Origin: Actinobacteria bacterium casp-actino8 | GTDB lineage: Bacteria; Actinomycetota; Acidimicrobiia; Acidimicrobiales; Ilumatobacteraceae | Assembly (NCBI GenBank): GCA_001510455.1 | Contig: LFFH01000006.1 | Coordinates: 1-29,314, forward strand | Direction of reading: 5' to 3' | Length of the DNA: 29,314 nt | Shown here: piece by piece, positions 5,451 through 20,105 of the stretch | Position numbering within the stretch: position 1 is the stretch's first letter | Layout of the letters: each line of letters opens with the position of its first letter | Translations under genes and position numbers: made by a program | Notes under the pieces: generated by a model | What the model was told of the DNA's origin: nothing | The model's database searches: none | Seen by the model: only the letters and a program-made list of their open reading frames with translations

Positions 5451-6383
5451 TCAGTTGGTGGGGGACGTGAGCGACGCCAACCGTGAGTCGGGGAGAGGTC
5501 GGGCTCCGATGTGCTCGATGACCCACGCCGACACTCGGGTGGCGAAGCGAGCGGCAGCGACCGGCGATCGGTGCACGAGGTGATGAGCGAGAAATGCTCC
5601 GGCGAAGGAGTCGCCAGCCCCCGTGGCGTCGACCAGTTTGTTGGTGGCCGGAGGAATGTGGGTGACGGAGTCGCCGTCGAGAACGAGAGCCCCATCGGCA
5701 TCGAGCTTCAGGACCACCAGTGCGCTCGGAAAGATCTTGGCGACGTCCCGGGCGATGTCGTGGGGGTCGTCGCAGCCGGTGAGTACCTGCCCTTCTTCTT
5801 TGTTGGGTAGGACGATGTCGACGTCGAGATCGGCACAGGTGGCGAGGAAATGATCGACCCCCATTTCCTGGATCATCTGGAACGAACCGGGATCGAACGA
5901 GACTGTCGATCCCGATTGTTGGGCCAGCCGGGCCGCTCGTCGGGCTGCCGAACGCGGTGGGTCGGTGAAGAACGACCAGGCGGTCAGATGCAGATGATCG
6001 CTTCCGGTGATCACCCCTACTGGCACTTCGGATGGCATGAGATAGAAGTCGGCGCCATGTCCCGAGACCATGGAACGTTGACCGGTGTGATCGACGAACA
6101 CGGCAACGGAGCCGGTGGGGTGAACATCGGTCTCGACGAAGTATGCGTGGACACCTTCACGTCGAAGATCCTCATCGGCGAGCTGGCCGAATCGGTCGCG
6201 TCCGATCTTGCCGACGAAACTTGTGTCGAGTCCGCAGCGACGAGCCCACACCGCAACGTTGGCGGCGCTCCCTCCCGGAGTCAGCATGACTTCGCCGAAG
6301 GTGTCGCCGCCACGCAGGAGTTCGCTGTTGGTCCGGATGAGAACGTCCCACGCGAAATCGCCGAGCACGCACAGTCGTGTCAC
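5451..6383 (-). CDS. PfkB family carbohydrate kinase
   Basis: A protein of about 310 residues with the ribokinase fold. It shows the N-terminal substrate-binding glycine motif GGSAANVAVWA, the mid-protein PNKEEGQVLTG, and the second PfkB signature DATGAGDSFAGAF, whose Asp (about residue 258) is the catalytic base and whose glycines form the anion hole. PfkB kinases phosphorylate sugars or nucleosides with ATP; the substrate cannot be read from sequence. I chose the GTG at 6383 because the protein then begins TRLCVLGDF, as in relatives, and a TACCGT hexamer sits seven bases upstream. A GTG at 6419 would add twelve unconserved-looking residues and leave only 24 bases to the divergent gene at 6444. 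Confidence 0.88.
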   Translation of the reverse strand: MTRLCVLGDFAWDVLIRTNSELLRGGDTFGEVMLTPGGSAANVAVWARRCGLDTSFVGKIGRDRFGQLADEDLRREGVHAYFVETDVHPTGSVAVFVDHTGQRSMVSGHGADFYLMPSEVPVGVITGSDHLHLTAWSFFTDPPRSAARRAARLAQQSGSTVSFDPGSFQMIQEMGVDHFLATCADLDVDIVLPNKEEGQVLTGCDDPHDIARDVAKIFPSALVVLKLDADGALVLDGDSVTHIPPATNKLVDATGAGDSFAGAFLAHHLVHRSPVAAARFATRVSAWVIEHIGARPLPDSRLASLTSPTN

Positions 6384-6390
6384 ATGACGA

Positions 6391-6396
6391 ACGGTA
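6391..6396 (-). promoter_or_regulatory. Leaderless-type -10 hexamer for the PfkB gene
   Basis: On the minus strand TACCGT ends seven bases before the GTG at 6383, favouring that start over 6419. It is back to back with the selenoprotein promoter candidate at 6432-6437. Confidence 0.42.
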
Positions 6397-6431
6397 CCGG
6401 TGTCCGACCTGACTGCCACGTCGGAACTCGT

Positions 6432-6437
6432 TAAGGT
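6432..6437 (+). promoter_or_regulatory. Leaderless-type -10 hexamer for the selenoprotein candidate
   Basis: TAAGGT ends exactly six bases before the GTG at 6444, the commonest spacing in this window. It suggests that the gene with the in-frame TGA has its own promoter. The AAGGTGA around it could also act as a weak ribosome-binding site. Confidence 0.45.
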
Positions 6438-6443
6438 GACGTC

Positions 6444-6923
6444 GTGCGTATTCGCGGGACCCTGTTCGCTCTGACATGTGCCCTGACGGGCGCTCTGATC
6501 GTCTCGTCGTGCGGAACTGATCCGTCATCGGATTCATCGGCTGCCGGAGCACGGGCATCCGCACTGTTGGTGTCGGAGCTCCCTGAGATATCGGGCCCCA
6601 CGGTTCTGTGGTTCTGGGCGCCCGGTTGAGGTTCGTGCAATCTGGAAGCCCCCTCGGTCGAGGAGGCACGAGCGAGATATGAGGGCCGAGTGTCCTTCGT
6701 CGGTGTGGCCTGGGCGGGTTCCACCGAGTCGATGATCGATTTCATCGCGACGCACGAACTCACGTTTCCGTCGGTCGAGGATCCAGGCGGCGATGTGTTC
6801 GCCTCGTTCGGAGTCACCGGTCAGCCCGCGTGGGTCTTTCTCGACGAATCCGGCGACAGCACGAGAGTGTCGGGTTCTCTCGGCTCTGATCAGCTCGATG
6901 TGTTGATCGCCGAGATCGCCTGA
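6444..6923 (+). CDS. Candidate selenoprotein: DsbE/TlpA-like thioredoxin-fold lipoprotein, Sec encoded by TGA at 6627-6629
   Basis: Read through the TGA, this is one 159-residue protein. It has a lipoprotein signal peptide (lipobox VSSC, lipidated Cys23), a spacer rich in Ser and Ala, then a thioredoxin fold: VLWFWAPGUGSCNLEAP, a VSFVGVAW strand, and the cis-proline loop GQPAWVF (Pro128). U62 falls exactly on the nucleophilic first cysteine of the CxxC; Cys65 is the second. The pattern closely resembles mycobacterial DsbE/DsbF proteins (FWTPWCPFCNAEAP, from memory), which are extracytoplasmic thiol oxidoreductases. The frame continues intact for 97 residues after the TGA, and a SECIS-like hairpin follows at once. 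TGA is an ordinary stop for many genes here, so recoding would be local. The Trp usually before the first Cys is Gly61. A simple caller would split this into a 61-residue fragment and a second frame from 6690. The last 34 bases overlap the convergent LLM gene. A nonsense mutation from TGC is the main alternative. Confidence 0.8.
6632..6672 (+). promoter_or_regulatory. SECIS-like hairpin just downstream of the in-frame TGA
   Basis: The upper stem pairs 6648-6655 with 6660-6667: eight positions with one C-A mismatch at 6651/6664, closing a four-base loop GGUC at 6656-6659. A lower stem pairs 6632-6636 with 6668-6672 and leaves an unpaired 5' bulge. The loop begins 27 bases after the TGA. Bacterial SECIS elements are described as a short stem with a G near the start of the apical loop, roughly 16-37 bases after the UGA. 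E. coli fdhF also has GGUC in its loop. All of this lies inside the coding frame, as in other bacterial selenoprotein genes. Folding was done by eye. Confidence 0.65.
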
Positions 6924-7903
6924 ATCACCGAAGCGAAACGCGCATCGTCGCTCGGATCGGATGGTGGTTGGACGAGCACACCATCGGTGAGGCCAGAGAA
7001 CCACTGGTCGATGACCGCGGGTAAGTCGTCCCACGTGGCCGACGGGACGAGCGCATCGAGATGTTCATCGGTGAGGACATCGGCCAGTCGGTCCCATTCA
7101 CCCTTGCGTGTGAGTTCTTGCAATCGAGCACCGACGTCTTCCCAGCCGAACAACTCGAGAGTCCGTCGATAGGCCGGAGTCGAGTACAAGAAAGCGAGCA
7201 CCGCTCGTTGGGCACCTCGGCTGGCATCGACGTCTGCGGCTGTGGCTCCGGTGATGAATGGAGACGCCGTGGAGATCTCGACGTCTCGGCCGGCCGCGCC
7301 AACGACGGGGCGCAGTCGTTCCCGAAGGAAGCGGGGGTGCGAGTTGGTGGGGTGGGTCACCAGCCCGTCGGCGACATCGGCCGCGAGTTCGATGGCTCGA
7401 TCGTTGATGCCCCCGAGCCAGAGTCGAGGGCCGGAGTGAGGTAGGGGCCCGGGGTTGAAGAAAGGTTGCAGTCGAGTGACCGAGTAATTCGGGTTCTCGA
7501 CACGAAGGGCTTCGCCGGTCGAGAACGAATGCCATGCGGCCCGAACGACGGCGACGTAGTCGCGCATCCACGGGATGGGGCGACGCCACGGCACTCCGAA
7601 ACGACCTTCGACGTTCTGTCGAATCTGTGAGCCGAGTCCGAGGTGGAAGCGTCCACCCGACATGCGTGACAGGTCCCAGGCCTGCAACGCCACGAGCATC
7701 GGGCTGCGCGGAAACGCAAGGGTCAGGCTGGTCTGAACCCGTAGCTCGCTCGTGTGCTCGAGCGCGAGCAAGGCGACACTGAACGAGTCGTGGATGGTTT
7801 CGGGCACGTGGAGGACGTCGAAGCCGAGTGCCTCGACCCGTCGTGCGTAAGCGCCCGTCTCTTCGAGAGGGAGACGATCACTCATGCCAGCGATGACTTT
7901 CAC
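6890..7903 (-). CDS. LLM-class (luciferase-like) F420-dependent oxidoreductase
   Basis: A protein of 337 residues. It starts KVIAGMSDRLPLEETGAYARRVEALGFD and carries the TIM-barrel landmarks of luciferase-like oxidoreductases: LTLAFPRSPM, LSRMSGGRFHLGLGSQ and GPRLWLGGINDRAIELAADVADGLVTH. Relatives in Actinobacteria generally use coenzyme F420; the substrate cannot be told. The GTG at 7903 has a TACCCT hexamer six bases upstream. It diverges from the Rieske oxygenase gene across an 87-base gap that may hold both promoters. Its 3' end overlaps the selenoprotein candidate by 34 bases tail to tail. Confidence 0.87.
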   Translation of the reverse strand: MKVIAGMSDRLPLEETGAYARRVEALGFDVLHVPETIHDSFSVALLALEHTSELRVQTSLTLAFPRSPMLVALQAWDLSRMSGGRFHLGLGSQIRQNVEGRFGVPWRRPIPWMRDYVAVVRAAWHSFSTGEALRVENPNYSVTRLQPFFNPGPLPHSGPRLWLGGINDRAIELAADVADGLVTHPTNSHPRFLRERLRPVVGAAGRDVEISTASPFITGATAADVDASRGAQRAVLAFLYSTPAYRRTLELFGWEDVGARLQELTRKGEWDRLADVLTDEHLDALVPSATWDDLPAVIDQWFSGLTDGVLVQPPSDPSDDARFASVIQAISAINTSS

Positions 7904-19616: not shown

Positions 19617-20105
19617 TCAGGCGAGAGCGGATTCGATCGCCGCGACGAGAGCGGGATCTTCAGGGGACACCATCGGGCTGAATCGGGCGATCACTGATCC
19701 GTCGCGACCCACCAGGAACTTCTCGAAGTTCCACCGGATGTCGCCTGTCGTACCGTCGGCGTCGGCAGTCCGAGTGAGTTCGTCGTAAATCGGATGGCGA
19801 CCATCGCCGTTGACGTCGATTTTCTCGGTCATGGGAAAGGTCACCCCGTAATTCGTGGAGCAAAAAGTGGCGATCTCATCGGGTGAACCAGGTTCTTGCG
19901 CGCCGAACTGGTTGCACGGGACGCCCACGACGGAGAATCCACGATCGGCGTACTTCTCGTGCAATGCCTCGAGGCCGGTGTACTGGGGCGTCAGCCCGCA
20001 CTTGCTCGCCACGTTGACGACGAGGCAGACCTTGCCCGACGCCATGCTGGAAAGGGACGACGACTGACCGTCCAATGTGTTGATCGACTGATCCAGAATG
20101 CTCAT
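19617..20105 (-). CDS. Glutathione peroxidase-family thiol peroxidase (Cys form)
   Basis: A protein of 162 residues with the thioredoxin-like GPx fold. Active-site motifs are NVASKCGLTPQY (peroxidatic Cys36), NQFGAQEPG (Gln70) and RWNFEKF (Trp125, Asn126). Cys82 in FCSTNYGVTFPM is a likely resolving cysteine, as in thioredoxin-dependent bacterial GPx. Position 36 is a true TGC cysteine, not TGA. It removes hydroperoxides in the cytoplasm and leads an operon with the SDR and 2OG oxygenase. The ATG at 20105 has a CACAAT hexamer six bases upstream. Confidence 0.93.
   Translation of the reverse strand: MSILDQSINTLDGQSSSLSSMASGKVCLVVNVASKCGLTPQYTGLEALHEKYADRGFSVVGVPCNQFGAQEPGSPDEIATFCSTNYGVTFPMTEKIDVNGDGRHPIYDELTRTADADGTTGDIRWNFEKFLVGRDGSVIARFSPMVSPEDPALVAAIESALA

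Follow-up and report, generated by a model that had tools for sequence, protein, structure and literature searches.

In the stretch of DNA analysed here (29,314 nucleotides, hereafter the window), a reading frame that opens with GTG at position 6444 meets a TGA at codon 62 and continues in the same frame for 97 codons (63-159) before its terminal stop, a second TGA at 6921-6923. Is the first TGA a stop, or is it read as selenocysteine (Sec)? Re-reading of the sequence confirmed the observation of an earlier note that the TGA stands at the place of the first Cys of the CxxC of a thioredoxin-fold lipoprotein, within the motif FWAPG-U-GSC followed by NLEAPSVEEA. The promoter-like hexamer that was also reported ahead of the GTG start was not recovered: a sigma-70 scan of positions 6250-7000, to which other promoter types are out of reach, returned no sigma-70-type promoter, and the sequence found there instead resembles a ribosome-binding site, adjoined by an in-frame TAA (6432-6434). 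The features of the locus are as follows.

6433..6438, + strand: AAGGTG, possible ribosome-binding site, 5 nt 5' of the GTG start (read in the sequence)
6444..6923, + strand: putative selenoprotein gene, GTG start, 159 residues, Sec at 62 (read directly, and from homologues)
6444..6512, + strand: predicted lipoprotein signal peptide with lipobox VSSC; Cys23 (6510-6512) is the predicted acylation site (alignment A2 and pattern)
6627..6629, + strand: in-frame TGA, putative Sec codon 62 (TGA in 37 of 38 related loci)
6636..6638, + strand: Cys65, the Cys of UxxC and predicted resolving residue (invariant column of A2)
6648..6667, + strand: putative SECIS hairpin GCC-C-CCTC-GGTC-GAGG-A-GGC (pairing, silent sites and folding)
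6822..6827, + strand: Gln127-Pro128 (invariant columns of A2)

Conservation of the TGA in related loci

An open frame around a TGA is little proof when taken alone, since the window, counted over its six frames, has 51 TGAs that are preceded by at least 55 and followed by at least 90 stop-free codons. Whether this TGA is more than chance is therefore decided by its conservation in relatives. A scan of representative genomes yielded 38 related loci. Read with a pattern that allowed any codon at the Sec position, 37 of them show TGA there and none shows a codon for Cys, the 38th (L038) having no matching motif. The 37 TGA loci come from 36 metagenome-assembled genomes, mostly labelled Actinomycetota, Acidimicrobiia or Ilumatobacteraceae, and in their best-matching segments they share 36-60% identity with the window, both halves being conserved as one thioredoxin domain. 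Position 62 of the homologues thus reads TGA and not TGC, in support of the proposal that Sec occupies the nucleophilic position. Three of these loci (L008, L010 and L020) are labelled Bifidobacterium breve or Acidobacteria yet fall inside the Sec family in the tree described below; they probably belong to mislabelled bins.

The prediction that the protein is an exported lipoprotein was likewise supported. The predicted product begins with MRIRG and reaches VSSC-G at the lipobox. A lipobox with a usable start was found, by a permissive pattern, in all 38 genes (the window and the 37 loci), and every one of the 31 rows of alignment A2 has Cys23.

Protein databases give a different picture of the same family. 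The read-through sequence matched 13 proteins, of which two (P0002 and P0013) are full-length Cys forms and 11 are only 95-98 residues long, with a first residue that lies 1-5 positions past the Sec; judged from the protein sequences, gene callers seem to have missed the upstream half. The databases thus appear to store relatives as broken fragments because a Sec codon normally means stop, and since such fragment-like entries carry the names peroxiredoxin or hypothetical protein, ordinary annotation hides the family. When the family alignment was used as query, 248 proteins were matched, most of them full-length among the 120 of 248 matches listed, and six that were inspected comprised four Cys forms and two fragments of the 95-98-residue kind. 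Close Cys forms of the Sec lipoprotein are P0002, P0015, P0016 and a paralogue at locus L016 (Ilumatobacteraceae), where a tandem Cys copy (5281, TGC) lies beside the Sec copy (6031, TGA). The existence of these Cys forms, together with the predominance of full-length proteins among the listed relatives, indicates that Sec is not indispensable.

Among plasmids, 16 records matched with 30-46% identity, each over less than 80% of the query, and in viral contigs 28 stretches fitted the pattern with none confirmed.

The hairpin behind the TGA and the Sec-decoding machinery

A hairpin starts 18 nt after the TGA, with its apical loop GGTC (6656-6659) 26 nt after it. The family consensus is GCC-C-CCUC-GGUC-GAGG-N-GGC. 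Pairing was counted over 41 aligned hairpins (40 distinct sequences, 7 pairs, 280 cells; L004, L037, L057, L063, L065, L068, L069, L071 and the repeat genes were left out), and all 280 cells hold standard pairs. Five pairs are invariant, one occurs also in a G-U form, and one accounts for all four double compensatory changes, from C-G to U-A three times and to G-C once. The numbers of paired cells and of double-changed cells and the covariation score were each reached by none of 500 shuffles, whereas the number of double-changed pairs and the number of further pair types were reached by 118 of 500. In two loci outside the count, L063 and L068, the outer stem is mismatched.

Because a structure derived from the sequences on which it is tested favours itself, more weight is given to the silent sites. 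The S-V-E codons under the loop are TCG, GTC and GAG in 44 of 44 members (near copies L004, L006, L030 and L037 having been dropped), and the preceding Pro is CCC in 43 of 44, whereas at other conserved Gly, Ala, Val, Pro and Leu positions of these genes codon choice varies roughly as much as the background predicts. The string CCC TCG GTC GAG recurred in all ten profile-found loci that had not been selected by the EAPSVEEA pattern, and L071, which the 44-member test missed, reads ACC TCG GTC GAG. The Cys paralogue in L016 lacks the hairpin codons and has GAG GCG TCT ACC GTC CAG at that place. Seven more distant Sec loci retain GGTC after the TGA in six cases, the exception being L080.

Compared with the SECIS of E. 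coli fdhF, the hairpin shares the apical GGUC (within AGGUCU in fdhF) and a stem just after the UGA; it differs in stem sequence and in the distance from UGA to GGUC (26 nt, against 18 in fdhF).

Section 5 of the review PMC13188914 describes a bacterial SECIS model with a loop of 3-9 nt, a G among its first two bases, a spacing of 16-37 nt and a minimum free energy of at most -7.5 kcal/mol. The hairpin fits this model, with a spacing of 26 nt, the loop GGUC and -10.1 kcal/mol for the isolated 20-mer; its 4-bp upper stem is at the lower limit that the section gives. When the window's 54 nt were folded in isolation, the apical stem had a probability of 0.07, because a longer rival stem takes its first bases, and it rose to 0.99 once the first 9-12 nt were hidden, as they would be by a ribosome on the UGA. 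It exceeded 0.5 without hiding in 36 of 41 sequences, the lower ones being the window, L017, L020, L032 and L037; in L032 it stayed at 0.2-0.4 whether bases were hidden or not.

The 12-nt hairpin core, with one mismatch allowed, occurs four times in the window against 0.81 expected (four were reached in 2 of 100 shuffles), and no copy at this stringency stands behind the terminal TGA of the gene. A one-mismatch copy, CGTCGGTCGAGG, lies further down the gene (6769-6780).

The earlier note had held that a genome lacking selA, selB, selC and selD would count against Sec. Relatives' genomes do carry tRNA-Sec, selA, selB and selD. A clear tRNA-Sec (62-68 bits, 92-94 nt) was found in 30 of the 36 carrier genomes; 31 had a match over the cut-off, and that of G005 (71 nt, 47.7 bits) was set aside because control genomes also match at that level (all 14 controls matched at E <= 0.001, five of them over the cut-off and two at E <= 1e-10). 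SelB was over the cut-off in 27 of the 36 carriers, and SelA and SelD were present in 33 and 35, respectively, of the 40 genomes searched. Among the six carriers without a clear tRNA-Sec (G005, G009, G021, G026, G028 and G034), SelB occurs in four and SelA in G028; in G034, a 1.0 Mb bin, tRNA-Sec, SelA and SelB were not found over the cut-offs, nor SelD at 1e-20. The genome nearest to the window among 15 compared by trigger factor (G105, 78% identity) has tRNA-Sec, SelA, SelB beside SelA, and SelD, and its own family gene (L070) also has the UGSC motif, shows 57% identity across 122 columns and groups with the window in the tree (support 99/92).

In a sample of 296 genomes from the class of G006, taken to be Acidimicrobiia, tRNA-Sec was detected in 191. 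It was present in 72 of 79 genomes with a TGA form among the matches listed versus 119 of the 217 others, which include genomes with unlisted matches (Fisher p 1.3e-9, uncorrected for kinship). The genomes that have tRNA-Sec and no family match at E <= 1e-15 include ones of about 1 Mb, such as G041, G046 and G052, and presumably make other selenoproteins. Seven of the 35 genomes whose SelD passed the cut-off have a TGA inside the SelD frame as well (L091-L097), and the sequence behind that TGA takes other folds, with GGTC in one of seven.

These data bear directly on the other ways of reading the TGA. Were it an ordinary stop, it would end a short peptide, and the downstream half would be a second ORF or the gene a pseudogene. 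Open frames past a TGA are indeed common in this GC-rich window (the 51 places mentioned above), and databases keep the downstream halves as separate proteins; the recurrence of the same TGA in 37 of 38 loci that are only 36-60% identical, with both halves forming one thioredoxin domain, a lipobox in 38 of 38 genes and a hairpin with frozen silent sites nevertheless leave this reading a slender chance. A changed genetic code, in which TGA would stand for Trp, Gly, Cys or some such ordinary amino acid throughout the lineage, would also explain why codon 62 is read through, but TGA is still the terminal stop of 18 of the 23 window ORFs picked as genes, of the selenoprotein gene itself and of 25 out of 36 family genes that could be read to their end, while Trp is written TGG in the gene (codons 56, 58, 90 and 130) and there are 99 TGG codons in the 23 ORFs. 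A general reassignment is thus very unlikely and we give it hardly any credence. A sequencing or assembly error for TGC, which the earlier note had named and for which a single base change would suffice, is refuted by the TGA of the relatives, present in 36 metagenome-assembled genomes and on multi-megabase contigs (G038, G062 and G191) that count against assembly error, and its probability is negligible.

Taken together, these results make it very probable that the gene encodes a Sec-containing, membrane-anchored, extracytoplasmic thiol-disulfide oxidoreductase of the DsbF/MPT53/ResA type, whose UGA at codon 62 would be decoded via the hairpin. The identification of a selenoprotein gene appears about as strong as sequence evidence alone can make it, the Sec site, the hairpin, the decoding machinery in relatives, the lipobox and the fold each being supported.

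Fold, kinship and possible function

With Cys written for Sec, the protein matched four Pfam families over their curated cut-offs: AhpC-TSA (7.5e-10), Redoxin (1.6e-08), Thioredoxin_8 (1.4e-06) and Thioredoxin (1.8e-06). A structure model with Cys at 62 had a pLDDT of 84 and a helix at 63-78. Its best fold match in the PDB was DsbF (3ios, rank 1, TM 0.66/0.78, rmsd 1.4), with MPT53 (1lu4) next and then ResA, and sequence profiles likewise ranked these two proteins of Mycobacterium tuberculosis best (DsbF 3ios, 3.9e-39; MPT53/DsbE 1lu4, 7.8e-36), which bears out the kinship to mycobacterial DsbE/DsbF that the earlier note had suggested. DsbF and MPT53 share with the window protein an exported CxxC-type thioredoxin fold, WFWAP/WFWTP and QPA; they differ in having Cys, not Sec, in their active sites and in lying outside the core Sec clade. 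The Gln127-Pro128 pair presumably forms the cis-Pro loop facing the active site, as we would expect of thioredoxin-fold enzymes. ResA, StoA and CcmG are alike in fold (ResA 1st9 at rank 3, StoA 3erw at rank 20, CcmG 1kng at rank 29), and are Cys-based with weak NCBIfam matches far below the cut-offs (P0001 scored 41.4 against ResA, where 170 is required). The window protein is not a plain two-Cys DsbF/MPT53 member, the first codon of the pair being TGA; we regard it as a probable Sec variant of that type, in which Sec should work like Cys.

In a 61-row tree (built without L004, L006, L028, L030, L037, the repeat genes, P0015 and P0016), 44 Sec rows and two Cys rows form one clade of 46 (100/98). 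The rows outside this core clade are DsbF/MPT53, six more with Cys and seven more with Sec; these seven Sec rows are more distant Sec redoxins with motifs such as WAPWUPTC and WAPGULTC (L073, L074, L075, L080, L081, L083 and L084). The Sec/Cys label requires four changes on the tree, three of them forced by well-supported branches. The positions of P0002 and the L016 paralogue in the tree suggest that these two have reverted from Sec to Cys.

The following course of events may be proposed. SelB with Sec-tRNA-Sec would read the UGA at codon 62 as Sec because the hairpin stands ahead of the ribosome, while the terminal UGA, with no hairpin core behind it, would stop translation. We infer that the protein is then exported, that cleavage at the lipobox and acylation of Cys23 follow and leave the thioredoxin domain facing outward, and that in its chemistry Sec62 attacks and Cys65 resolves via a selenenyl-sulfide.

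As to catalytic direction and partner, which we likewise infer, the likeliest role of the lipoprotein would be to reduce disulfides or oxidised thiols at the envelope, with a MauE-type membrane protein supplying the electrons. Among 15 genomes, some of them drafts, MauE was found in 14, DsbD_TM in four and VKOR in one, the absences of VKOR and DsbD_TM thus resting partly on draft genomes. By analogy with MauD/MauE, a TlpA-like protein may receive electrons from MauE, and on this analogy we give the reductase reading about an even chance.

A serious but less probable alternative is that the Sec machinery decodes the UGA as proposed and that the protein is mainly an oxidase (disulfide donor) or a peroxide-reducing enzyme. 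DsbF and MPT53/DsbE, its closest structural matches, both belong to the exported disulfide oxidoreductases, and the AhpC-TSA and Redoxin matches also point this way. In addition, passages of PMC3792642 and PMC12421883 describe a DsbA-VKOR oxidative pathway in the organism of DsbF and MPT53, the function of DsbF and MPT53/DsbE themselves being listed as unknown in one of these passages. Against an oxidase or peroxidase speaks the occurrence of VKOR in one genome of 15 with MauE in 14, so that the usual actinobacterial oxidising partner seems to be missing.

A broader and rather improbable conjecture would make selenium a main currency of envelope thiol chemistry in Acidimicrobiia. Lineage-wide and often multi-copy surface-anchored Sec oxidoreductases would then work without VKOR and CcdA/DsbD partners (VKOR is missing from 14 and DsbD_TM from 11 of the 15 genomes), the Sec being recycled either with the help of a MauE-type protein or by direct reaction with small oxidants and thiols.

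Gene neighbours were also considered. Those of the window recur mainly in L001-L007. In another branch (L009-L036) a lipoamide-dehydrogenase-like gene is found close by, upstream on the other strand, in 19 of 34 loci and an E2-like gene in 14, the window being counted among the 34 and both names being our reading of the sequences; no function was drawn from either set of neighbours. Elsewhere in the window, a homologue of glutathione peroxidase is encoded at 19617-20105 on the - strand (Pfam GSHPx 1.1e-38); its VASKCGLT motif holds a Cys, not a Sec.

Occurrence in the class and relation to described families

A profile search of the class sample matched 197 of the 296 genomes at E <= 1e-15. 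Of 30 loci taken from these matches, 25 have TGA at the first CxxC position and five have Cys, seven or so of the 30 being genes already seen. By these searches, annotation greatly understates how widespread the Sec lipoprotein family is in its class.

Whether the family had been described was addressed by comparison with NCBIfam 20.0 and with the literature. No NCBIfam family scored over its cut-off for any of the ten family proteins scanned. Two models are alike by name, a thioredoxin fold with Sec or Cys: to NF041054 (WAxxUGC_long) P0001 scored 21.7 against a cut-off of 300, and to NF053656 (redoxin_TUGYCR) P0001 had no match at E <= 0.01, the best score being that of P0002 (20.5 against a cut-off of 100). 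The relation to the selenoprotein family named after UGSC, about which the earlier note had wondered, did not appear: NF041046, the UGSC-containing family that also figures in the table of PMC13188914, was absent from the matches of the ten members at E <= 0.01.

The suggestion that a Sec form of a DsbE/TlpA-type lipoprotein may be undescribed agrees with the lack of an NCBIfam model over the cut-off, but catalogues do list Sec redoxin/TlpA-like UxxC proteins by domain. The catalogue in PMC13188914 enters UxxC selenoproteins under PF00578, PF08534 and cd02966, crediting the last two to marine metagenome papers; Sec redoxins are therefore already known, and the present genes may partly fall under those names. 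Two entries of its Table 1, the 'Redoxin family protein' (PF08534, UxxC, HEU0032618.1) and the 'Thiol-disulfide isomerase-like protein' (cd02966, UxxC), are alike in domain and motif, as compared by description. A second Redoxin representative in the catalogues is MBA3499694.1. The string Actinobacter- is absent from the main text of PMC13188914, and a term search of PMC12013277 found neither it nor Acidimicrob-; Sec use is known in other Actinobacteria according to Table 2 of PMC5029168. Listings of open-licence literature on selenoproteins of Acidimicrobiia, Ilumatobacter, Actinomarin- and freshwater actinobacteria and on TlpA lipoproteins yielded no description of the Sec lipoprotein family. 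As far as this literature and NCBIfam reach, the family would be new, though of a kind already known.

A small exported protein of uncultured actinobacteria almost certainly carries Sec in its active site, which points to a whole actinobacterial class using genetically encoded selenocysteine in exported lipoproteins. According to section 10 of PMC13188914 (a 2026 review), aerobic bacteria rarely keep selenoproteins, whereas 40.4% of Sec users are counted as aerobic in PMC5029168; we assume that the carrier bacteria are aerobic. What selenium contributes outside the cell could be probed with the Sec and Cys forms, which match closely and in one genome are neighbours, and the frozen hairpin offers a clean substrate for tests of SelB recognition in Actinobacteria.

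Several TGA-bearing matches per genome were observed, among the matches listed, in G305, G222, G191, G171 and G178. G305 has at least four, one of which contains two in-frame TGAs.
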